Source: Candidatus Kuenenia stuttgartensis (GTDB taxonomy: Bacteria > Planctomycetota > Planctomycetia > Pirellulales > UBA1268). From it: a DNA stretch of 39,655 nt. Below are positions 5,772 through 39,655 of the stretch, one piece after another (within the stretch, counting starts at the first letter, position 1; every line of letters begins with the position of its first letter). Below the pieces are notes generated by a model. That model saw only the letters and a program-made list of their open reading frames with translations. It was not told where the DNA came from and did not search any database. The stretch lies in NCBI GenBank assembly GCA_945890755.1, contig CAMDDA010000007.1, positions 1-39,655 on the forward strand. The letters run 5' to 3'. Made by a program: the position numbers and the translations under genes.

Positions 5772-6433
5772 GACGAACCCCGTTCCGCCAGCCGCGCCGC
5801 GATCAGGGCCGCGAGCCGATCGATCACCTCTTCCCGCGACATGCCGTCGGTCTCCAACAGCACCGCATCGGCGGCAGGCCGCATCGCCCCCACCGGCCGC
5901 GTGCGGTCGCCTTCGTCGCGCCGCGCCTGCGACTCCTGCACCTGCTCCAGCGACGACGCCCGCCCACGCTCCAGCTCCTCGGCGAGACGCCGCCGGGCCC
6001 GCTCCTCGGCCGATGCAGTGAGAAACACCTTCAGTTCGGCGTCGGGAAACACCTCCGAGCCCTGGTCGCGGCCCTCGGTCACCACGTCGAGCCCTTCGGC
6101 CATCCGCCGCTGCACCCGCTTCATCGCGGCGCGGACGTCGGCCGCATCGGCCACCGCCCGCGTGGCCTGCGTAATCCGGTCGGTACGGATCTCGGTCGAG
6201 ACGTCGCGGCCATCGGCCAGCACGCGGCCGTCGCGAAATTCGATCACCGTCCGCTCCACGAGGTCGGCCACCCGCGGCGCGTCGTCGAGCGGGATGCCCT
6301 GCTCGAGCGCCATCAGCGTGACCGAGCGATACATCGCACCGGTGTCGAGGTAGCACCAGCCGAGCCGTGCGGCCAGCGCGCGGGCCGCCGAACTCTTGCC
6401 CGCACCGGCCGGCCCGTCGAGCGTGACGATCAT
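5768..6433 (-). CDS. cmk: Cytidylate kinase
   Basis: About 221 residues, the usual length. It phosphorylates CMP and dCMP with ATP. The P-loop LDGPAGAGKSS is at residues about 4-14, followed by YLDTGAMYRSV, the standard NMP-binding signature. GRDQGSEVFPDAELKVFLTA replaces the more common GRDIGT-type sequence, and RRDEGDRTRP is the CMP-recognition region. The ATG at 6433 is chosen because the family begins at MIVTLDGP and because it overlaps the upstream gene's stop as ATGA (6430-6433). The downstream plsC start overlaps in the same way, so the three genes are likely to be translationally coupled. Confidence 0.95.
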   Translation of the reverse strand: MIVTLDGPAGAGKSSAARALAARLGWCYLDTGAMYRSVTLMALEQGIPLDDAPRVADLVERTVIEFRDGRVLADGRDVSTEIRTDRITQATRAVADAADVRAAMKRVQRRMAEGLDVVTEGRDQGSEVFPDAELKVFLTASAEERARRRLAEELERGRASSLEQVQESQARRDEGDRTRPVGAMRPAADAVLLETDGMSREEVIDRLAALIAARLAERGSS

Positions 6434-8961
6434 GTTCCGAATTCCAGCTCCAGCTGCAGCCACTCGTAGCGCCGCAGTGAAGCTACGACGGCCCGGCCCA
6501 CGATCGCAACCTCGACATCCTCGCGCGGCTCGCCACGGAGATCCACGGCCGTCGCCCGCGCCACGGGCACAGCCCACTCGATCCGCACCGGGCCCGAACG
6601 CCCCGCCGACTCGACCACGCCGACCCGCAGGCGGGCCGATTCGGCGACTCCGGCGGCAGCCGCACCCGGAAACAGCCGCACGCCTGGGGGCAGGCGCAGC
6701 GGCGCCGGACCGAGCGGCACACCCGCCAGGAAATCGACCGCCAGATCCCAGGGCCGCTCGAGGCCGAGCCCCACGGCCAGCCGCCGCGCGACCGGCACGC
6801 CTGCCGTCGCCCCAGCCGCCGCGAGGATCGAGTCGAGCACATGCGGGCTGGAAAGTATGTGCCAGGGCAGGCCGCCGGTGAGGATCGCCACGGCATCGCG
6901 ATCGTCGCTCGCCGCCGCCCGCATGCCACCGCCGCCGAGCAGCTCGATGAAGTGCGGCGACGTGAACCGCGACCGCTCGGTGACGATCGACTGGCCATGC
7001 AAACTGCGGCGGACTTCCACCGCCTCGTTCTCATTCCAGGCGAACCGGCAGCAGGCATGGGAATCGTAGAAGCCGCCCGTGAAACCGCTGGTAGGCACGA
7101 TCTCGATGTCGAGCACGGCCAGCGGCAGGCCCTCCACGAGCGTCATGCCCTGCCGGAACGTGCCCGCCTCGCGATCGCCGGCGGCGAGCAGCCGGCCCGT
7201 GGCCACGAGTCCATCGCCGCCACCCGCGGTGCGGCCGCGCACGATCGCGTCGGCCTGCATCCGTGTCGCGCCCTCGACGCCGCTGCGCAGCGCGAGCTGC
7301 TGCGAGAGCCGATTGCCGCGGTCGCAGGGCCGCCGCAGCGAGAGCATGCCCCCGGTGACCGCATGGGCCTCGAGCCGTACGAGCCCGTTGTCGAGCACCC
7401 GCTCGGCGGTCTCGCGCGGCGCGAGGCCGAACCAGCCGCCCGCCTTGGCCCACCAGCTGGCGTCGCCCAACGCGGCCGTTTCTGCGGCCGGCCGTGCCGG
7501 CACGGGCGGGACCGCCGCCACGAGCGGCATGAGCGGTGCGCGGGCAGCCACGACGGCCCCAGCCGACGCCTGCACCTCGGCGATCCTGCGATCGATCGCG
7601 GCAGCCGCGCCAGTCGCAGGCGGACGCTCCGGCGCGAAGGCGTCGGGCTCGAACGAGGCGGGCGTGCCCGAGCCGCCCGTGCGGGTGAACAACTCCGCGG
7701 GCGTGACGAACGAGCCGAGCGCCGTCGTCCACCGGCCGATCCGCCGCAGGAGTTGATGCCACGGGCCGGCCGTGCCGGCATGATGGGCGAATGCGATCAC
7801 CGCCACGTGGTCGTGATCGAGCGCGTCGCCGATCCGCTCGGGAAGTTCGAGCACGGCCCGGGCCGTGCGGGCATCGAGCGGCATGCGGGCCACCGCCTCC
7901 ACGCTCGCACCACCTGTGCCCTCCCAGCGGATTCGGCCGGTGCCGGGATCGGGCAGCGCCGAGCCGTCGAACAGACCCCAGATGGCGGAGTCGATGCCGA
8001 TTCCAGCGAGCAGCTGCGGCAGGATCGCCGACGAGCCGCCCGCATACCGGGCGAACGTGGCCGGCGCGGCTCCCGCGACCTCGCGGCAGGTGGCGATCCC
8101 CGCCGCGAGCCAGGCGTGCAACTCCTCCGGCAGCCGCGCGTCGAGCGGCCGATCATCCGGCGGACCGCCACAGAGCGACACCGTGCCGGCAGCCACCCTC
8201 TCCCGCAGCCGCTCACGCACCGCCGCATGACCAGTGGTGAGCATGGCCAGCAGATCGGACGACGCGACGATGCCCAGCGGCACGTCGGCCTCCAGCTCGG
8301 CAGCGAGCGGTGGCCCGAGCGTCGAGGACGCCAGCAGCACGAGATCGAGCAACCAGAAATCGACTGGGTAGTAGCGGGCCCGCCAGCTCTCCAGCCAGCC
8401 GAAGCATTCCTGGAGTCCGGCCCGCGCGTCATCCTCGCGGCCGGCAGCAGCGGCCTGGGAGGCGGCGACCACGGCCGCGGCGAAGCCCCCCGAGTCGAGG
8501 TCGGTGGCCGATCGCATCCGGCGGGCGAGGAGTTCCGACACGAGCACTCCGAGGCCCAGCGCGTGAAAGTCGTCGGCCCAGGCGGTGGCGGACGGGTCGC
8601 CCGCTGCCACGCCCGCAGCGGCCGCGACCGCCTCACCGATGGCCGCGCGGCCGGCCACGCCCCGCACCCAGCGGGAGTCGACCTGCGCGGCCGCGTCGAA
8701 CTGGGACGCGAAGCGGTCGTCACAGAACGCGGGCACGATGCCGAGCAGGGCTGCATCGGCGGGGGGCGGCAGGTCGACACTGGCCCAGACGGGCATCGAC
8801 CCGGCAGCCGCGATCACGGCGGGATGCCAAGCCGCCGTCCAGGCCGCGAGGAGCTCGTCGGCCTCCTGCTCGTCGAGCCAGAAGGGAAAGTCGTCGAGCG
8901 TGTGGCAGGGCAGGAAGACGGTGGGCCGCAGGAGAGGTGTGACGCAGCGTTCGGCTTCCAT
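6430..8961 (-). CDS. GH38/GH57-like sugar-active protein, specificity unknown
   Basis: About 843 residues from ATG 8961; a TTG six codons upstream is possible. No signal peptide, so cytoplasmic. The N-terminal half begins with TVFLPCHTLDDFPFWLDEQE and continues as an alpha/beta barrel-like region of the kind in GH38/GH57 enzymes. From about residue 500 the sequence resembles the C-terminal beta domain of alpha-mannosidases: DNGLVRLEAHAVTGGMLSL, then a region with GGFYDSHACCRFAWNENEA. I cannot point to the catalytic nucleophile with confidence, so a hydrolase, an inactive relative or another polysaccharide-processing role are all open. It opens the operon with cmk and plsC and is divergent from the pil-like cluster. 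Similar large proteins seem common in planctomycetes, but this is from memory. Confidence 0.8.
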   Translation of the reverse strand: MEAERCVTPLLRPTVFLPCHTLDDFPFWLDEQEADELLAAWTAAWHPAVIAAAGSMPVWASVDLPPPADAALLGIVPAFCDDRFASQFDAAAQVDSRWVRGVAGRAAIGEAVAAAAGVAAGDPSATAWADDFHALGLGVLVSELLARRMRSATDLDSGGFAAAVVAASQAAAAGREDDARAGLQECFGWLESWRARYYPVDFWLLDLVLLASSTLGPPLAAELEADVPLGIVASSDLLAMLTTGHAAVRERLRERVAAGTVSLCGGPPDDRPLDARLPEELHAWLAAGIATCREVAGAAPATFARYAGGSSAILPQLLAGIGIDSAIWGLFDGSALPDPGTGRIRWEGTGGASVEAVARMPLDARTARAVLELPERIGDALDHDHVAVIAFAHHAGTAGPWHQLLRRIGRWTTALGSFVTPAELFTRTGGSGTPASFEPDAFAPERPPATGAAAAIDRRIAEVQASAGAVVAARAPLMPLVAAVPPVPARPAAETAALGDASWWAKAGGWFGLAPRETAERVLDNGLVRLEAHAVTGGMLSLRRPCDRGNRLSQQLALRSGVEGATRMQADAIVRGRTAGGGDGLVATGRLLAAGDREAGTFRQGMTLVEGLPLAVLDIEIVPTSGFTGGFYDSHACCRFAWNENEAVEVRRSLHGQSIVTERSRFTSPHFIELLGGGGMRAAASDDRDAVAILTGGLPWHILSSPHVLDSILAAAGATAGVPVARRLAVGLGLERPWDLAVDFLAGVPLGPAPLRLPPGVRLFPGAAAAGVAESARLRVGVVESAGRSGPVRIEWAVPVARATAVDLRGEPREDVEVAIVGRAVVASLRRYEWLQLELEFGT

Positions 8962-9013
8962 GCCGACAGTGTAATTCAATGCAGTGATGCCGCGGCCAAG
9001 CCCGCTGGTTCGT

Positions 9014-9118: not shown

Positions 9119-11203
9119 ATGGCCCGCAGTCCGTTCACGTGGGGAATCGATATCGGCAAATGCGGCCTCAAGGCCCTCCGCGGCCGGCTCGCGCCGGGCG
9201 ACCCGCGGAAGTTCGTGGCCGAGGGCTTCGACTACATCGAATACCCGATGCTCCTCTCGCAGCCGGAGGCCGATGCCACGGAACTGGTGCGGGCGGCCCT
9301 CGAGGAGTTCACGAAGCGGAACGACCTCCGCGGCGACCGCGTCGCCCTGGCCGTGCCCGGGCAGCTGGGACTCTCGAAGTTCATCAAGCTGCCGCCGATC
9401 GAGGCCAAGAAGATCCCCGACATCGTGAAGTACGAAGCCCGGCAGCAGATTCCCTTCCCCATGGAGCAGGTGGTCTGGGATTGGCAGCGGCTGGCCGGAG
9501 GGGTGGAAGAGGGGGGCTTCGTGCTCGACGCCGAGGTGGCCCTGTTCGCGATGAAGCGGGAGCAGGTCTACAAGGCACTGGCGCCGCTCGATGCGGCCGG
9601 CGTGGCGATCGACGTGTTGCAGCTGGCGCCGATCGCGCTGGCCAACATGGTGCTCTTCGATCAGCCGCCGCCCCCACCGGCCGACGAACTGGGGCCGCCA
9701 CCGCCATCGACCGTGGTGGTGTCGATCGGCGTCGACGCCACCGACATCGTGATCACCAACGGCCTGCGGATCTGGCAGCGGAGCATGCCGATCGGCGGTA
9801 GTTCGTTCACGAAGGCGCTCGTCAAGGAACTCAAGCTCACGTTCTCCAAGGCCGAACACCTCAAGCGCAACGCCGTGCGGGCCGAGGATCCCAAGGCCGT
9901 CTTCAAGGCGATGCGGCCGGTCTTCAACGAGTTCACCGCCGAACTGCAGCGGTCGCTCAACTACTTCACCGGCTCCGACCGCTCGGCGACGATCGGGAAG
10001 GTGCTCCTCCTCGGCAATGCGGCTCGGCTCCGCGGCCTCTCCGATTTCGTGGCGCAACAGCTGAAGCTCGACGTGCAGCGGCCGGAGAAGTTCGACGCCC
10101 TGGAAGGGGACGGCGTGCTGACAGCCCCGGCGTTCAAGGAGAATCGCCTCGCCTTCGGCACCGCCTACGGCCTCGCCCTCCAGGCGGCCGGCGGCGGCCG
10201 GATGAACACCAACCTGATGCCGCGGGAGATCATCCGCGACCGCATCATCGAAGAGAAGCGGCCGTGGGCCGTGGGGGGCCTCGTGGGCCTTCTGGCAGCC
10301 GGGCTCGTGAGCTTCGTCGGCCTGTTTTTCGCCTGGAAGACGCATGCCGACCCCGGCTTCGCCGGCGCGTTCGCGGCTGCGGAGGCCGCCCAGAGGCGGT
10401 CGCAGACGGAAACGACTGCCGTCGAAGACGCCAAGTCCAAACGCCGGGCGGCCATCGACCAGCAGCGGAGTCTGCTCCAGGTGCACGAACGTCGGTTTCA
10501 GACGCTCGACATGCTCCGGGCCGTGGAATCACTCCTCCCGCAGGACGAACCGGGCAGCGTGCCCGAAAATCCAGCCGATCGCCGCGAACTGCATATCGAG
10601 AGCATCGACTGCCAATACTTCCCCGACGTGGCCGTGTGGTTCGCAGGCGTGAAGAAGCAGTGGAGCGACACCCATTCGTCGGTGGCGGCAGGCTCTCCGG
10701 ACTCACCGGCGACTCCACCGCCTCCTCCAGGTGGGGAACCGGCCCCCGAGCCCCCGCCCACTCCCGAAACCACCACCGCCGCCGACGGCCCCACGGGCGC
10801 CGGCTGGGTGATCCAGATCATCGGGCATCACTACCACAACGAGGATCGCCACAAGCCCGACGAGGGAGAGCAATTCGTCCGCTCGACGCTCGTGAAGAAC
10901 CTGCTGGGCGAGGGGAAGGATGTGCTCGTGTCGGCCGGGCCGCTGGCGGGCCAGCGGGTTCCGGTGGCCGAGTTGGGCATCGGATATCCGGTGATCATCG
11001 AATCGTCGCCCATCCGTCCGGAGCGGGTTCTGCGGAGCCAGCCCGTCGGCGGCGCCGGAGTGCCCACGGCTGACCAGTCCGGCACCGCGGCTGCTCCGGC
11101 GGTCGAACTCAATCGATACAACTTCGCGTTGCAGTTTGTCTGGCAGCCCGGCGGGCAGCCGGTGCCGACGCCATCCACCCCCCCGCCGCCACCGGGCGAA
11201 TGA
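9119..11203 (+). CDS. PilM/PilN-like fusion, type IV pilus-type assembly protein
   Basis: About 694 residues from ATG 9119; the frame extends to 9068 but the family starts at FTWGIDIGKCGLKALRG. Residues 1-360 are PilM-like with the actin fold: GIDIGKCGLKALRG phosphate loop, LSKFIKLPPIEAKKIPDIVK, and VVSIGVDATDIVI. The next part looks like PilN: NLMPREI, then a membrane helix at about 382-405, a charged helical region and a periplasmic domain interrupted by a Pro-rich linker near 527-557. In other bacteria PilM and PilN are separate proteins, where the N-terminus of PilN binds PilM; here they are covalently joined. It likely forms the cytoplasmic-to-periplasmic part of an assembly platform for a pilus or type II secretion-like machine. 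ATPase and PilC partners are not in the window. Confidence 0.85.
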   Translation: MARSPFTWGIDIGKCGLKALRGRLAPGDPRKFVAEGFDYIEYPMLLSQPEADATELVRAALEEFTKRNDLRGDRVALAVPGQLGLSKFIKLPPIEAKKIPDIVKYEARQQIPFPMEQVVWDWQRLAGGVEEGGFVLDAEVALFAMKREQVYKALAPLDAAGVAIDVLQLAPIALANMVLFDQPPPPPADELGPPPPSTVVVSIGVDATDIVITNGLRIWQRSMPIGGSSFTKALVKELKLTFSKAEHLKRNAVRAEDPKAVFKAMRPVFNEFTAELQRSLNYFTGSDRSATIGKVLLLGNAARLRGLSDFVAQQLKLDVQRPEKFDALEGDGVLTAPAFKENRLAFGTAYGLALQAAGGGRMNTNLMPREIIRDRIIEEKRPWAVGGLVGLLAAGLVSFVGLFFAWKTHADPGFAGAFAAAEAAQRRSQTETTAVEDAKSKRRAAIDQQRSLLQVHERRFQTLDMLRAVESLLPQDEPGSVPENPADRRELHIESIDCQYFPDVAVWFAGVKKQWSDTHSSVAAGSPDSPATPPPPPGGEPAPEPPPTPETTTAADGPTGAGWVIQIIGHHYHNEDRHKPDEGEQFVRSTLVKNLLGEGKDVLVSAGPLAGQRVPVAELGIGYPVIIESSPIRPERVLRSQPVGGAGVPTADQSGTAAAPAVELNRYNFALQFVWQPGGQPVPTPSTPPPPPGE

Positions 11204-11240
11204 CGGCCCGCAGTTTCCCCTCCGCCCTCCGAGCATCGGC

Positions 11241-12605
11241 ATGGAAATCCCCGACAACGTGCGACAGACGCTGGCCGCCGTCGCCAGGTATCACTTTTGG
11301 ATCCTGGCGGTGCTGGTGCCCGTGTGCATGATGCCCGTGCTCTCCATGGGGAGCGCGGCACTCACGGCGCGCATTGCGGAACAGCGGCAGAAAATCCGGT
11401 CTACGCTCGGACAGATCGACAGCGTGACGAACGTGCGTCCCCACCCCAACGCCGAATGGGCCACGGCCATTGACGAGGAGTCGACCCGCATCGCAGCCGA
11501 GACACAGGCCGAATGGCGGCGGCTCTGGGAAAGCCAGGCCACGCTGCGGACCTGGCCCGACGACCTCGGCGTTGACGACTTCCTGCCGGCCGTGGCCGGC
11601 CTCGCACCAGGGGGCAAGCTCGAACGGAAGTACCTGCAGCGGTATCAAAAGCTCGCGCCACGATTCGTCCGGGGGCTGCCTGCCCGACTGGGCGTGACGG
11701 AAGCCATGGTCGAGGCAGCGGCCCCGGAGGCAGCGGCCCCGGAGGTTGCAGCCCCGAGGGATGTGGATCGACCGGGGACCGTGCCGCCCCCCGCAGTCGT
11801 CGCGGCGACCTGGAACCCTGCCGATCAAAAGCGGCTCTACGAATCCTTCGTGTGGGACGTGCCGCCGACGACGACCCAGGTGCTCGTGGCCCAAGAGGAG
11901 CTGTGGGTTCTGGGGGCGTTCTGTGATCTCATCGGGCAGTTCAATGACCGCAACCGGGCGGCGGAGAGCCGCGAACTGCCCATCAGTCTGATCAACGAGC
12001 TTGCGGTCGGCTACCGCGCGGCGTTGGATCCACCCGGGGGTCTGGGGGAATCGCGACTGCGGAAACCCAAGATCTTTGATCCGGAGGAGGAGCCTGGGTT
12101 TGGCGAAGATCTCCCGCCTCCCCCCGATGCCGCCGAGTTGATGCCGCCGGGCGAGCTTCCGGCCGAGCCGCCGGAGCCGGTGGTCAACCCGCGGTTCACG
12201 CCGGGTTCAAAGTCCAGGAACGAGGACGACTATCGCAACCTGATCTACGTCGATTTTGCCTCCAAGCCGCTCACCGCGGCCGAACTGGCCGCCGCACCCG
12301 ATGCCAGGATGGTGCACCTCGTACCCTTCGTGTTCAAGGGTGTGATCGACCAGCGGAGGCTCGACGCCCTGCTTGTTTCCTTCGCCGCGTCGAGCCTTCC
12401 GATCGACGTGCGCGAGGTGCGGATCAATCCCGGGGCGGGGAGCGGCGCGGTCGCCGGCCTGCCGGGCCCGGGATCTGACGGCGGCACCGTTCGGTCGAGG
12501 CCGTACGATGTGGTGGTGGAACTGCGGGGCACGGTGGCGTTGGCCACCTCGCCCGAGACGCCGCCAGCGCCGCCAGTTGGGCCGCCGCCGGAGCAAGCGC
12601 CATGA
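11241..12605 (+). CDS. Membrane-anchored protein of the pil-like cluster (PilO-position, unknown)
   Basis: About 454 residues from ATG 11241, 37 bases after the fusion gene. One N-terminal membrane helix (about residues 19-42, FWILAVLVPVCMMPVLSMG) follows a short cytoplasmic start, then a coiled-coil-like helix (LTARIAEQRQKIRSTL). The remaining part is periplasmic, with an Ala/Pro repeat (EAAAPEAAAPEVAAP), several Pro-rich linkers and a late alpha/beta section. This layout matches PilO, and the gene sits where PilO would, but I see no sequence motif that proves it. Its stop overlaps the next start as ATGA at 12602-12605, so the two are probably coupled. Confidence 0.8.
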   Translation: MEIPDNVRQTLAAVARYHFWILAVLVPVCMMPVLSMGSAALTARIAEQRQKIRSTLGQIDSVTNVRPHPNAEWATAIDEESTRIAAETQAEWRRLWESQATLRTWPDDLGVDDFLPAVAGLAPGGKLERKYLQRYQKLAPRFVRGLPARLGVTEAMVEAAAPEAAAPEVAAPRDVDRPGTVPPPAVVAATWNPADQKRLYESFVWDVPPTTTQVLVAQEELWVLGAFCDLIGQFNDRNRAAESRELPISLINELAVGYRAALDPPGGLGESRLRKPKIFDPEEEPGFGEDLPPPPDAAELMPPGELPAEPPEPVVNPRFTPGSKSRNEDDYRNLIYVDFASKPLTAAELAAAPDARMVHLVPFVFKGVIDQRRLDALLVSFAASSLPIDVREVRINPGAGSGAVAGLPGPGSDGGTVRSRPYDVVVELRGTVALATSPETPPAPPVGPPPEQAP

Positions 12606-14419
12606 AGATGCCGTCGCTTTCGCTCAACGCGGATGCCGTGGTCGATTTCCTGTTGCGGCATGGGGAGAAGTTCGTCGTCACGGGCTTGGCCATCGTCGCC
12701 GGATGGCTGGCCTGGACCGGCTTCAACGCCGTGCGGCTCGAGACGGTGCCGTCGAATCAACGCCCGGCCGCGATCCAGTCGGCCGCCGCGCAGGCGGAGA
12801 GCCATATCGCGAGCGCGGCTGAAATGCCGGCCGACCTGTTGCCGCCCCATGCCTCGCTCACCGCGACGCTGGACGGCTGGCGGAACTCCCGACCGGAGGA
12901 GGTCCGTGATCTTGCCATCCTCGACAAGCCGCTGTTCGAAAACCTGGCCCGGCGATCGAAGCCACGGGCGCTGCCGCTGCAAGATCTCCGGGCGGTGGCC
13001 GGCATCGCAGTGCTGGAAGTGAAGCCGCAGGCCGCCGCAGGCCCCACTCCGGCTGCAAGCGGCTCCAGTCGCAGGCCGCGCGGAGGAGCGCCGCAATCGG
13101 CCGACCTGGATTCGGAACCTGAGCAGCGCGAGGAGCAGCTCGGGCAGCCGGGCCGTGTCGTGCCCTATGTGATGGTCACCGGACTCATCCCAGTCGCCGC
13201 GCAACAAGAGGAATTGAACCGCACGTTTGCCGACGTGAGCTTTCGGGATCTGAAACTCGACACGGCCGTCTGGACGGACTTCGAGGTCGAGCGGGCGACG
13301 GCTGTGGCCGGAAAGGAATCGTCGTGGCAGAAACTCGATCAGGCCTCCGTGCTCAAGCTCCGGATCGCCCAATGGGCGGCGGCCGACGCCAATCGTGTGC
13401 CACCCACGTTGCAGCTTGCCGCCGAGCAGGATGGCCGCGACCGGAAAGTCACGCCGTTCAGCTTCTGTGGCCCCATTCCCACGCGAATCGATGAACCGTG
13501 GGGTCTGGAGCAGTTTCATCCCCTCGTGATCGATGCCCTCAGGCAGGCAGCGCAGGCTCGCCAACAGGAGAATCAACCTGTCGCCGGGCAGCCGGCGGGT
13601 CTGCCGGCATTCGTCGATCGTGGCGACGGGCCGACCGGTTTCAATCCCGCGTCTCAGCCGGCGGCTGAGCCGATTGACGGCGTGATCGAACCGCAGAGCG
13701 AGCCGCAACGCATGTTTCGGTTCATCGATACGGCGGTCGAGCCGGGGAAGTCGTATCGTTACCGGGTGACGCTGAAGATAGCGAATCCCAACTTCGGCCT
13801 CGACTCGCAATACATCGCCGAGCCGGCACTGGCGAACGACCCCCAACTGTCAGCGCCGCCGAGCGATGCCACGACGGCGGTCGGCATTCCCGACCCTGTG
13901 ATGATGCTCGCCAGCCGTCTCGATGCCGACGACATGAGGCGACTCAAGCTCAAGCCCGGCATGTTCGAACTGCTCGTGATCGCACCGTCGGAAAAGACGG
14001 GCAATTATTCGCTGCGGAGCGTGGTCACCGAGATCGGCGGTGTCGCCAACGTGGACGAATCGCTCAACAGGCCCGGCGACGTGCGATTCAAGGGGGAGAA
14101 GACGACGACGAACAGGGTGCTCCTGGATGTGATCGGCCAGCAGGGTGATCCAGAGGCGGCGGCACCGCCGCGGGGCGGGCGGCAGACGAGGCAGCAACGC
14201 GAGGGCCCCGCCGAGCCGCTGGAAATGATCTTCCGCAAGCCGGACGGGAGCCTCGAGATTGCATCGGCTGCCGACTCTGAGCCGCGGATCTCGCGGTATC
14301 GTGACACGCTGTATCCCCCCGAGGCGGCGTCATCGGAGGGCGACCCCGGATTCGCACCAGGTGGCCCACCGCTCGATGGCGCGCCCTTCAATCCCTTTCA
14401 GACGCAGCCGCCGAGGTAG
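12602..14419 (+). CDS. Membrane-anchored periplasmic protein of the pil-like cluster, unknown
   Basis: About 605 residues. A single membrane helix lies near residues 24-39 (FVVTGLAIVAGWLAW). The large remainder is probably periplasmic: helical at first, then beta-rich, with a fibronectin-like stretch (FRFIDTAVEPGKSYRYRVTL) and disordered linkers rich in Pro, Gly and Arg, ending in a Pro-rich tail. I recognise no named family. Start overlap with the preceding gene and the 9-base gap to the next place it in the same operon. It may be a third component of the assembly platform or a link to the outer-membrane part. Confidence 0.8.
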   Translation: MKMPSLSLNADAVVDFLLRHGEKFVVTGLAIVAGWLAWTGFNAVRLETVPSNQRPAAIQSAAAQAESHIASAAEMPADLLPPHASLTATLDGWRNSRPEEVRDLAILDKPLFENLARRSKPRALPLQDLRAVAGIAVLEVKPQAAAGPTPAASGSSRRPRGGAPQSADLDSEPEQREEQLGQPGRVVPYVMVTGLIPVAAQQEELNRTFADVSFRDLKLDTAVWTDFEVERATAVAGKESSWQKLDQASVLKLRIAQWAAADANRVPPTLQLAAEQDGRDRKVTPFSFCGPIPTRIDEPWGLEQFHPLVIDALRQAAQARQQENQPVAGQPAGLPAFVDRGDGPTGFNPASQPAAEPIDGVIEPQSEPQRMFRFIDTAVEPGKSYRYRVTLKIANPNFGLDSQYIAEPALANDPQLSAPPSDATTAVGIPDPVMMLASRLDADDMRRLKLKPGMFELLVIAPSEKTGNYSLRSVVTEIGGVANVDESLNRPGDVRFKGEKTTTNRVLLDVIGQQGDPEAAAPPRGGRQTRQQREGPAEPLEMIFRKPDGSLEIASAADSEPRISRYRDTLYPPEAASSEGDPGFAPGGPPLDGAPFNPFQTQPPR

Positions 14420-14428
14420 CTCCGCATC

Positions 14429-15730
14429 ATGACGTCGCGAATCCCGATGGCCGGCCCGTCTCTGCGCATCGCGGTTGCCCGCGGATGGCTGGTCATAGCC
14501 CTGCTCTGCTCGGCCTCCGTCGCTCGCGCTCAACCCGCGGCTGCGGACTGGAGGCAGGTGGAAACGTCGCAGGAGCTCGTCGACTATCGGCTCGCACTCC
14601 GCGAAGGAGGGTTCGACGACAGTGCGAAGGCGTTCCTGACGGACATCGCCCTCCCGCAACTGGGGCTCCCGGTCAATCAGGCTTCGATCGAGCGCGTGCG
14701 GCGGCGGATGCGGGACTTGCTCTGTGGTGACGCGGCCTCCGAGCCGCGGGCGATGGACGCGGCGTTGCAGACGATCGTGGGCTTCATGACGGCGACCGCG
14801 CGGAACAACGCGGTCGCACCGATCGTGCGGATCAATGCGCTGCTCTTCGTGGGCGAGGTCAAGGGCAAGGATGGGAAGCCCTGGCCGGCCGCCGCGGCCC
14901 CGCTGGCGGCGGCCATGAGTGACCCGAAGCTGCCGGTGGACGTGCGGATCGTGGCGGCCCAGGGGCTCGCTCGGCACGTCGAGGCGGCAGGGCCGTCAGC
15001 CGGCGCGACCGTCGGCCCCATGCTCGTGAAACTGCTGCCGTCGCTCACGGGATTGAGTGACCGGGCTGCCGCCGATTGGCTCACCGCACGGGGACTGACG
15101 ATGGTGGCCGACCTGGGCTCCGCCGCGCCACCGGAGGCAACGGCCCCGGCGCTGGCCATTCTCGAAGACGCATCCCGGGCGACCACGCTCCGGGCGCGGG
15201 CAGCGGCGGCGGCAGCGGCGGCCGGACCGAAGGCCGCCGGGACCGACTGGGGCAAGGCCGTGGCGGCCTGCCGCGCGACGGCGTTGACGGCCCTCGAAAC
15301 GGCGAAGACGCGGGGCGAGCGGGCCCGCGAGCAGGGCCTCCTCGCAGCGGCCGCCGCGGCGCAGCCGGGGTCTGGCGGTGAGCCGGGATTCGGCAGTGGG
15401 CCGGCTGCGACGTCGGCAATACCCGAACTTGCCTGCCGCCGTGTGGCCTGGGAACTGATGACGCTCGCCGAGGCGCTCGTGGGGGCCGACGGCAGGGGGG
15501 GCATCGCAGCGATCCGCGGAGCTGACCCGCAGTCTGCCGGCAGTCTTGGCAGCACCCTCCGCGAGGCGGCCACGATGATCGACACGAATCCGGACGAGGC
15601 CGCGATCCTCGATGCCCTTGCGATGCTCACTGGCGGCCCGGCACCCGAAGCCCGCGAGCCGGTCGCCCCTGGGGCTGATTCCCAGCCCGCCGACACCGCC
15701 GAGCCGGTCGTGAACCCATTTGGTCAGTAG
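14429..15730 (+). CDS. Secreted alpha-helical protein of the pil-like cluster, unknown
   Basis: About 433 residues with a clear signal peptide (GWLVIALLCSASVARA, cleavage before QPAAADW, near residue 35). The mature part is almost wholly helical and Ala-rich, with repeated units such as PVDVRIVAAQGLARHVEAAG that resemble HEAT-type repeats. Gly/Pro-rich inserts occur near residues 310-325 and the end. It closes the four-gene cluster and could be a periplasmic scaffold, but the function is not known. The start is ATG 14429, with GAGG about 13 bases upstream. Confidence 0.8.
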   Translation: MTSRIPMAGPSLRIAVARGWLVIALLCSASVARAQPAAADWRQVETSQELVDYRLALREGGFDDSAKAFLTDIALPQLGLPVNQASIERVRRRMRDLLCGDAASEPRAMDAALQTIVGFMTATARNNAVAPIVRINALLFVGEVKGKDGKPWPAAAAPLAAAMSDPKLPVDVRIVAAQGLARHVEAAGPSAGATVGPMLVKLLPSLTGLSDRAAADWLTARGLTMVADLGSAAPPEATAPALAILEDASRATTLRARAAAAAAAAGPKAAGTDWGKAVAACRATALTALETAKTRGERAREQGLLAAAAAAQPGSGGEPGFGSGPAATSAIPELACRRVAWELMTLAEALVGADGRGGIAAIRGADPQSAGSLGSTLREAATMIDTNPDEAAILDALAMLTGGPAPEAREPVAPGADSQPADTAEPVVNPFGQ

Positions 15731-36491: not shown

Positions 36492-39400
36492 TCACCACGG
36501 CGAGCGGCCGAGGGCGGCGATGGCGGCGTGATCGGCCGACGTGAGCCGGCGGCCGGCGGCGCGGGCGAGCGCGAGGCGACACCATGCATCGGCCGCGGCC
36601 GCCGCGGCATCGGTGCCGTGGACATCGGCGTGATGCGCCGTCGCCAGCGCGCTCACGAGTTCTCGCACCTCCGCCGCCAAAGCCCCGACCTCCAACTGGC
36701 GGTCGGCCAGCCCGCGGCCATGCCGGCGAATCGCCCGATCGATCCGCACGGCGGCATCAGCCAGACCGCGCCGCGCCCGACGGGCATGCCCGCGGAGCCG
36801 ACGGTCGAGGACGGCCGCGTCGGCTCGGGACCCCGCGGCGAACCGAGCCGCCCGCCAGGCCAGCCAATGGCCGGCCTGCGCCAGCCGCCCGGCGTCGCGG
36901 GCCTGCCGGGCGAGCGGATGCTGCTTCACGAGCCCCTTGAAGAGAGCCAGGCCGAGCAGGTCGCTCTCACCTTCGTAGACCGTGACGGCGAAGTGGTCGT
37001 GCAGCGAATCACCGAGCGGATGGCCGACGAGAAACGCCCGGCCGCCATGCACTCCAATCGCGTCGATCGCCGCCTCGCGGACACACGTGCTGGCCACCAC
37101 CTTCGCGGCGATGGCCTCCAACTCGCCCGACTGGCCGGCGTCGATCGCGGCCGCGGCCCAGGCGGTGACCGCATCGCAGGCGGCGATCGAGGCGGCGATC
37201 CGGCCCAGTCGACCCTGCACGAGTTCGCGGGTGGCGATTGGCTGCCCCCAGGTGGTCCGCCGTTCGGCATGCGAGCGGGCGTGGGCGAGCAACAGCCGAA
37301 GCGTGCCGGCCGCCTGCGCCGCCAACGTCACACGGCCGCGATTGAGGCCATGCCAGACGATCTGCATGCCGTCGCGGCCAGCCGGCGGCGGGAGCAGATC
37401 GGCCTCGTCGACCTCGAAGCCCGTGAACTCGAGCGCGGCGTTGGCCGCGTGCTTGAGCGGATGGAGCGCGTAATGCCGCAGCCGAAACGCGGGCGTGTCG
37501 CGATCGGGCAGCCGCACGAGCACGACGGCGGGCTTCCCGTCGAGCAGGGCGAGCAGCTTCACGAGACGGCCGTGCTCCGCGTTGGTGATGAACATCTTCG
37601 TGCCGGTGAGCAGGAGCCGCCCATCGCGACGTTCGAGCACTGTTTGCACGGCGCCGAGATCACAGCCCACCTCCGGCTCCGTACCACCGAAGATCGAGAG
37701 CGGCCGCCCCGCCGCGAGGTCGGGCAGATGGCGAGCCTGCTGAGTGGCTGAACCGAATGCTGCGATCGCGGAGACGGCACCGATCGACGAGTGCACCGCG
37801 AGCATGCCCGCGGCGGTCGGGCAGGCGGCGGCCACGCGGGTGATCCCGCGGGCGAGTTGGCCGAGCGTGGCTTCGGCGCCGCCATGCTGCTGCGGCACCG
37901 ATAGCCCCCACAAGCCTGCCTCGCCAAGCGCAGCCTCGGCCTGCGTGGTGAACCGACCGGTCGGCAGCGGCGGGGCATCGGCGAGCGGCGCGGGCGGCGC
38001 TCCGGTGGGGAGCTGTTCATAGATCCGGCCCGCGGCCCGTAAATCGGCGATCGTGCAGACCGCCCGCTCGAGCACCGCCTCGACTGCGTCCGACAGTGGG
38101 CTCGCCGCGATCTCGGCCGCCTCGGCGAACCCGCCGGCATCGCCATGCCAGGTCGTGCCCGTGAGCCATGACCGCCTCGCCGCCATGCCAGTCTCCTTGC
38201 CGCTGCCTGCAGCCCGCGGCCCCACCGGCACGATGCCCGCGCCGTGCGGCCGCTCGCTCACGGCCGCCTGAATCCGATCCTGAAAATGACTCGCAATCGC
38301 CCGGCGCTTGAGCTGGAACGACTCCGTCGCCTCGCCGTGCGCCGCATCGAAGGGGCGGCCCACGAGGATCACCCGCCGCACCTGCCAGGCCCGCGGCAGG
38401 GCGTGTTGCCGCCGCGCCAGCCGCCGGGAGATCCAGGCGAGCAGCCGCGGATGCGCGACCGCCTGTCGCCGGCTGAACACCCGCAGACCCAGCCGGCGGA
38501 TCGCCGCCCGGATCACGTCGGGCTCCGGCACGACCAGGGCCACGGGCCAAGCCAGGCCGTCCCCCACGACGCACACCTGCGCCACCGCGTCGTCCTCGGC
38601 GAGCGGCCGCTCGCTCTCCGCCGGCGAGAGCTTGACGCCGGTCGAGAGCACGATCGTGTCGGAGATTCGACCCGTAATCCGCAGGTGCCCCGCCTCGTCG
38701 ATCTCGGCCACGTCGCCGGTCGCGAGCCAGTCGGAATCGGCGGCCGCGGGCTCGTCGCGCACGTCTCGGGGATGGATCACACCGAGCGCGCGGCTCGGCG
38801 TGCGGACGAGCAGCTGGCCATGGGACGCGGGCCGGTCGTCGATCCGCACCTCCACGCCATCGAGTGGCGGCCCGACCGTGCCCGACCGCGCGATCCGCGG
38901 ATTCGCCACGGCCACCACGGGCCCCGCCTCGGCGAGGCCGTACCCCTGCACGAGCGGGACGCCGCGAGCCGCGAAGAACACGGCCGTCCGGTCGCGGAGC
39001 GGCGCACCGCCTGAGATGCAGACCCGCACTCGGCCGCCGAGCGCGGCGGCGAGGTCGGCGATCCGCCCCGTTCGCACCCCACGTTCGAGCCGCTCGAAGA
39101 ATGCCGGCACGCCGAGAATCACGGCCGGGGGCAACGCGGCGCAGGCATCGAGCAGTCGCATGCGGTCGCGGACCACGTTGAGGCAGCCGCCGCGGACGAG
39201 CGCCGTGTAGAGATCGCCGACGCGGGCGTAGGCATGGCTCAGCGGCAGCCACGACAGCCGCACGTCCCGCGGATCGTGCAGAAACATCTCGCTCGACGCC
39301 CGGGCATTCAGAGCGAGCGACCGCTGCGAGTGCAGCACGCCGTGGGGCAGGCCGGTGGTGCCCGACGAGAGTAGGATCGTGCAGCAGGCGTCGGGGTCGC

Positions 39401-39655
39401 AGGCGGCGGCACGGCGGGCGAGCGAGTCGGCGAGGCGGACGGGATCTGCGGCGAGCCCGTGCCAGCCCGAGGCGGCGAGCACGCCCACGCCGAGATCGAG
39501 CAGCGGGAGTTCGCGTGGTGGAGACTGTGGCGGCCGGCCGCTGCACACGACGGCCCGCGGGGCGAGCCAGTCGAGGAGCCGCTGCTGCTCGCGATTCGGC
39601 AGGTCGTCGTGCACTGCCACGTGGACGACGCCGGCGAGCAGGCAGGCGAGATCGA
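36492..39655 (-). CDS. Acyl-CoA synthetase / acyl-CoA dehydrogenase fusion, 5' end beyond window
   Basis: At least 1042 residues from an internal GTG at 39620, and the frame is open to the window edge, so the N-terminus is missing. The first part is an AMP-forming ligase: ILLSSGTTGLPHGVLHSQRS (ATP loop, near 83-100), YGLAEAGPVVAVANP, DWLATGDVAEIDEAGHLRIT and GRISDTIVLSTGVKLSPAE. From about 479 it reads as an acyl-CoA dehydrogenase: GLWGLSVPQQHGGAEA, GGTEPEVGCDLGAVQ, LTGTKMFITNAE and RGRVTLAAQAAGTLRLLL, with a catalytic Glu candidate in YEGESDLLGLALF near 880. A helical C-terminal region follows. It could activate a fatty acid and hand it straight to oxidation. No partner gene is visible. Confidence 0.9.
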   Translation of the reverse strand, partial: DLACLLAGVVHVAVHDDLPNREQQRLLDWLAPRAVVCSGRPPQSPPRELPLLDLGVGVLAASGWHGLAADPVRLADSLARRAAACDPDACCTILLSSGTTGLPHGVLHSQRSLALNARASSEMFLHDPRDVRLSWLPLSHAYARVGDLYTALVRGGCLNVVRDRMRLLDACAALPPAVILGVPAFFERLERGVRTGRIADLAAALGGRVRVCISGGAPLRDRTAVFFAARGVPLVQGYGLAEAGPVVAVANPRIARSGTVGPPLDGVEVRIDDRPASHGQLLVRTPSRALGVIHPRDVRDEPAAADSDWLATGDVAEIDEAGHLRITGRISDTIVLSTGVKLSPAESERPLAEDDAVAQVCVVGDGLAWPVALVVPEPDVIRAAIRRLGLRVFSRRQAVAHPRLLAWISRRLARRQHALPRAWQVRRVILVGRPFDAAHGEATESFQLKRRAIASHFQDRIQAAVSERPHGAGIVPVGPRAAGSGKETGMAARRSWLTGTTWHGDAGGFAEAAEIAASPLSDAVEAVLERAVCTIADLRAAGRIYEQLPTGAPPAPLADAPPLPTGRFTTQAEAALGEAGLWGLSVPQQHGGAEATLGQLARGITRVAAACPTAAGMLAVHSSIGAVSAIAAFGSATQQARHLPDLAAGRPLSIFGGTEPEVGCDLGAVQTVLERRDGRLLLTGTKMFITNAEHGRLVKLLALLDGKPAVVLVRLPDRDTPAFRLRHYALHPLKHAANAALEFTGFEVDEADLLPPPAGRDGMQIVWHGLNRGRVTLAAQAAGTLRLLLAHARSHAERRTTWGQPIATRELVQGRLGRIAASIAACDAVTAWAAAAIDAGQSGELEAIAAKVVASTCVREAAIDAIGVHGGRAFLVGHPLGDSLHDHFAVTVYEGESDLLGLALFKGLVKQHPLARQARDAGRLAQAGHWLAWRAARFAAGSRADAAVLDRRLRGHARRARRGLADAAVRIDRAIRRHGRGLADRQLEVGALAAEVRELVSALATAHHADVHGTDAAAAAADAWCRLALARAAGRRLTSADHAAIAALGRSPW

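Follow-up and report, generated by a model that had tools for sequence, protein, structure and literature searches.

Three consecutive genes of a planctomycete genome (genes 1–3; Table 1) very probably encode the inner-membrane PilMN–O–(P-like) alignment and assembly subcomplex of a type IV pilus-class machine. They lie in the window, i.e., the whole stretch of 39,655 nucleotides analyzed here, and are followed by a fourth gene on the same strand.

Table 1. Genes of the module, the parts of the gene 1 protein and the downstream neighbor.
Feature	Position	Strand	Length	Remarks
Gene 1, PilM–PilN fusion	9119..11203	+	694 aa	ATG at 9119, stop ends 11203; single open frame
Gene 1, PilM part	residues 9–355			
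Gene 1, NLMP motif	residues ~364–367			
Gene 1, membrane helix	residues ~370–400			
Gene 1, coiled coil	to residue ~472			
Gene 1, periplasmic alpha/beta part	residues ~484–675			
Gene 2, single-pass periplasmic protein, Amuc_1100-related	11241..12605	+	454 aa	putative PilO/GspM position
Gene 3, single-pass periplasmic protein with Fn3-like domain	12602..14419	+	605 aa	PilP/GspC position, by synteny
Gene 4, signal-peptide-like N-terminus, helical	14429..15730	+	433 aa	downstream neighbor

Gene 1 is a PilM joined to a PilN-type motif, membrane helix and coiled coil, which bears out an earlier, sequence-only reading of this DNA that described a PilM part followed in one protein by an NLMP motif, a membrane helix and a periplasmic part. 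Specifically, the PilM part matches Pfam PilM_2 (PF11104) at 111.3 bits (cut-off 27) and passes the curated pilM model TIGR01175 at 140.3 bits (cut-off 133), and the PilM half of the AlphaFold model (mean pLDDT 83.7) aligns with 2ych_A (VIA Z 34.0, 327 aligned, rmsd 2.9). In the same model, NLMP is followed by a membrane helix and then an extended coiled coil, and a profile built from just the C-terminal half (A9) matches Myxococcus xanthus PilN (3jc8_Na; E 6.7e-6) over profile positions 5–143—that is, the motif, helix and coiled coil, with the globular end outside the match. No PF05137 (PilN) match to this globular domain was found by sequence search, and its strand/helix order in the whole-fusion model is alpha/beta, not plainly the permuted ferredoxin order. 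As the hit list of the whole-fusion fold search was taken up by the PilM domain, its lack of PilN rows is uninformative. The strict pattern N-[LIVM]-[LIMV]-P occurs in 49 of 81 fusions, so the NLLP-type motif is not invariant.

A search of the phylum with gene 1 recovered relatives in 238 of 246 planctomycete genomes, with an open frame of fusion length in nearly all of the matches listed. Within the window's class, the gene 1 profile match runs over an unbroken frame in 48 of 49 genomes, the gene being broken in the 49th; this, together with the phylum-wide predominance of fusion-length frames, shows that the fusion is neither chance nor a frame error. It represents a known part in a form found throughout the lineage, not a peculiarity of the window's genome. 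Nor is such a fusion unusual in principle, as had been supposed: GspL of type II secretion systems (T2SS) is itself a known fusion of the PilM–PilN type. Since gene 1 is PilM, not GspL, by curated models, a separate fusion event in the planctomycete lineage, independent of GspL, is likely. Two further observations concern gene 1 relatives. One class genome has gene 1 split into three frames (G268:C1:5476092–5477070), with only weak remains of gene 3 nearby. Five genomes of the window's order carry a second PilM-like match in a frame of ~870 aa; the two of this type at L069:6647–9229 (−) and L070:3969–6584 (+) have an N-terminal double zinc ribbon and a C-terminal PilM, and genes 2 and 3 are not beside them.

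The order of gene 1, the gene 2 family and the gene 3 family is kept phylum-wide, as seen in the 80 stretches inspected around gene 1 relatives from other planctomycetes. When the profile of each gene was run in reverse on the 49 class genomes, gene 2 matches lay just downstream of gene 1 in all 45 genomes that have gene 2, and gene 3 matches did so in 47 of 48; in the remaining genome the match sits on a different contig. The association of genes 2 and 3 with the fusion thus holds, as does their earlier description as two further single-helix proteins (one N-terminal helix in 72 of 76 gene 2 and 60 of 65 gene 3 family members). Of 81 loci, 38, mostly from deeper lineages, have a secretin on the same strand within 6.5 kb downstream (e.g., Pfam Secretin, 5e-22, in L059), and some lineages without gene 3 have the secretin directly after gene 2. 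Within the inspected stretches from the window's class, no secretin follows genes 1–3; because one does in deeper planctomycetes, its absence beside these genes characterizes the window's lineage. Eight loci of deeper lineages (L052, L098, L119, L120, L122, L123, L126, and L128) carry a tandem pair of secretin-type frames downstream of gene 3.

Gene 2, whose ATG begins 38 bases past the final base of the stop codon of gene 1, is, on the strength of profile comparison, a remote homologue of Amuc_1100 of Akkermansia muciniphila. Comparison by hhalign of the gene 2 relatives with Amuc_1100 (the sequence identical to PDB 6kny) gave probability 95 and E 3.2e-8 over 272 columns, where off-diagonal controls reached E 1e-3 or worse, and a further run gave probability 93 and E 2.7e-7. 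These runs took in 69–72 gene 2 relatives; the match is strong only with this wider set, a smaller one giving a weak result (probability 38, E 3e-4). Gene 2 has no match in NCBIfam to the Amuc_1100 family model NF038287 (equivalog score 180), and its profile drew only low-complexity or chance matches from PDB sequences. A review likens the structure of Amuc_1100 to those of proteins from type IV pili and type II secretion systems (PMC13119276).

Gene 3, which overlaps gene 2 by 4 bases, is the sole truly uncharacterized protein among genes 1–3, so that of the “two new components” once proposed here only one is unfamiliar, gene 2 having a homologue in Amuc_1100. An Fn3 match is present in 6 of 62 gene 3 members (best E 2.5e-5), and the gene 3 model, itself of low confidence (mean pLDDT 64.8), aligns with FN5-6 of NEO1 (VIA Z 9.6, 97 aligned, rmsd 2.6). 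The fold search with this low-confidence model returned Fn3 rows only; PilP and GspC were unlisted, which rules out nothing. Profile and domain searches detected no homology to PilP. Amuc_1099 was rejected as a counterpart by sequence, as only the membrane helix aligns in profile comparison (E 0.04), and EF-hand-like motifs found in both L121, a relative of gene 3, and Amuc_1099 were not accepted as evidence of homology. The gene 3 profile, too, drew only low-complexity or chance matches from PDB sequences.

Gene 4 starts 10 bases past the final base of the gene 3 stop codon, a gap of 9 bases. The locus had been read as a four-gene cluster. Its same-strand position, narrow gap and signal-peptide-like start would suit a fourth functional subunit co-transcribed with genes 1–3 (e.g., a secretin-assembly factor), but we consider this very unlikely: no relatives of gene 4 occur in the 40 clusters searched, and weak ones in G205, G167, and G275 sit away from gene 1. 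A role as a conserved subunit is rejected on this synteny. Gene 4 is adjacent here but probably outside the conserved module, which comprises three genes, and of the three unknown genes whose co-occurrence with the fusion the earlier reading wanted checked, genes 2 and 3 bear it out. Gene 4 has no Pfam match. Elsewhere in the window, the divergent upstream neighbor (6430–8979, −; 849 aa) lacks a Pfam match, and its positional counterpart in class relatives (L031:897–3752) matches Glyco_hydro_38N (E 8.5e-10); a 1042-aa frame at 36492–39620 (−) combines an AMP-binding (acyl-CoA ligase type) domain with an acyl-CoA dehydrogenase.

The remaining machine genes are present in the window's genome, outside the window. 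The window holds no ATPase, PilC or secretin gene, in agreement with the sequence-only reading of the cluster, and every match lies on another contig. The one secretin detected (contig C97) belongs to the same family as the module-linked secretins (E 2.4e-84), C19 encodes PilB–PilC followed by several prepilin-like genes, and C105 encodes PilB–PilT. PilT scores above its curated cut-off; PilB and PilC, though clearly homologous, score below theirs for NCBIfam equivalogs. The secretin, PilB, PilC, and PilT expected of a type IVa pilus machine thus occur in one genome. Their scattering over contigs counts against the pilus-class reading, as do the unmatched globular domain of gene 1 and the lack of a PilP or Amuc_1099 match for gene 3. 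Completeness of the assembly is 88%. Pfam (PF05137, PF04350, PF04351) detects neither a separate PilN nor a PilO or PilP in this genome, a point in favor of that reading, although these models are insensitive—PF04351 (PilP) detected only 1 of 14 controls. The PilB–PilC operon also includes a 1388-aa prepilin-like, GspK-like protein (L130:1311–5474, −) with no NCBIfam match.

Three known systems resemble the module. In Akkermansia (L084), the order Amuc_1101–1100–1099–1098 corresponds to gene 1–gene 2–gene 3–secretin, within the Amuc_1098–1102 locus (MUL2). Amuc_1101 (612 aa) is a PilM–PilN-type fusion too, and the gene 1 family matches it at E 2.7e-43 and 1.4e-8, in an alignment that extends across motif, helix and coiled coil. 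By these scores gene 1 is homologous to Amuc_1101 but not an equivalog of its NCBIfam family, NF045709 (191 bits, E 3.5e-56; equivalog score 650 not reached). With the secretin (module-adjacent planctomycete secretin vs. Amuc_1098, E 5e-28), profile comparison thus gives homology for the first, second and fourth parts, whereas Amuc_1099 and gene 3 share only their place as third single-helix protein, with no profile homology. The planctomycete proteins fall below the equivalog cut-offs of the NCBIfam models that curate Amuc_1098–1102 (NF042912, NF042425, NF038287, NF045709, and NF042424), no counterpart of Amuc_1102 was found at the planctomycete locus, and the secretin adjoins the Akkermansia module while it is not next to genes 1–3 in the window's class. 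GspL/GspM/GspC have a like layout (a cytoplasmic actin-like domain, helix and periplasmic part, then two more single-pass proteins); yet gene 1, unlike GspL, is PilM by curated models, and gene 3 has an Fn3-like domain and no recognized GspC HR domain. With PilMNOPQ of type IVa pili the module shares the order M–N–O–(P)–Q and the PilN NLLP motif, retained in gene 1; it differs in that M and N are one protein and that the proteins in the O and P positions are larger than PilO and PilP and unrecognized by the Pfam models of these. The idea of a distinct planctomycete version of the platform therefore holds as far as a conserved planctomycete module goes, but Akkermansia has at least three of the four parts. 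Given the GspL precedent and the existing NCBIfam models for the Akkermansia system, the planctomycete module is a variation on an established type. A literature search, whose coverage excluded most subscription journals, found no publication on it.

From the named homologues, we infer how such a complex would work. The actin-like PilM part of gene 1 would be cytoplasmic and bind the motor side, and the PilM–NLLP contact, normally made between two proteins, would be made in cis by the fusion, which would fix PilM:PilN at one to one. Gene 2 would pair with the PilN part of gene 1 in the manner of PilO/GspM, with the PilN/PilO-type parts forming a periplasmic coiled-coil platform, and gene 3, placed so by position only, would be the periplasmic bridge from this platform to the secretin. 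Once assembled, the complex would link the PilB/PilT motors and membrane PilC with the outer-membrane secretin, with a pilus rather than secretion as the probable output.

That output is the point on which other readings differ. The module might instead serve a T2SS-like machine that exports protein through a short periplasmic pseudopilus, with gene 1 acting like GspL. The fusion architecture of GspL fits such a machine, as do the C19 operon of PilB–PilC and prepilin-like genes (the 1388-aa GspK-like one included) and weak Pfam matches to T2SSL in 9 of 36 gene 1 family members and to T2SSM in 5 of 69 gene 2 relatives (best E 0.009). We nevertheless judge it rather unlikely, given that the PilM half exceeds the curated pilM cut-off while the window's own protein has no T2SSL match at E ≤ 1, and that PilT, the retraction motor that T2SS have lost (PMC10191384), is present above its cut-off. 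Planctomycetes, moreover, bear pili-like surface fibers (PMC5394234).

These fibers bind dextran at crateriform pits (PMC5394234), an observation that also suits a module turned over to adhesion or polysaccharide uptake as a non-motor complex, without a retractile pilus. This has been proposed for Akkermansia MUL2, a mucin utilization locus (Amuc_1099–1102) likely to mediate attachment (PMC13174399), and no motor genes lie next to genes 1–3 within the window. Yet PilB, PilC and PilT are all kept in the genome, which makes such repurposing unlikely; the uptake fiber might itself be a pilus, so that this reading overlaps with the pilus-class subcomplex that we favor.

A broader proposal, which we advance only tentatively and regard as doubtful, is that of a PVC-wide pilus platform descended from a single ancestral PilM–PilN fusion, in which an Fn3-type gene 3 took over from PilP/GspC the role of bridging to the secretin. 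If true, the crateriform pits and pili-like fibers of planctomycetes would be built on this platform, and Amuc_1100 would be an inner-membrane-anchored PilO-type subunit. Amuc_1100 has been reported as an outer-membrane surface protein.

The interest of the locus lies in gene 3, in the link to Amuc_1100 and in the link to planctomycete surface fibers. Planctomycetes gain a defined, nearly universal pilus-platform module that is open to deletion and imaging and that bears on what builds the fibers at their crateriform pits. Gene 3 offers a specific candidate for a secretin bridge other than PilP, and the module is tied to the Akkermansia locus of the much-studied Amuc_1100, for which synteny predicts both a role and a membrane.
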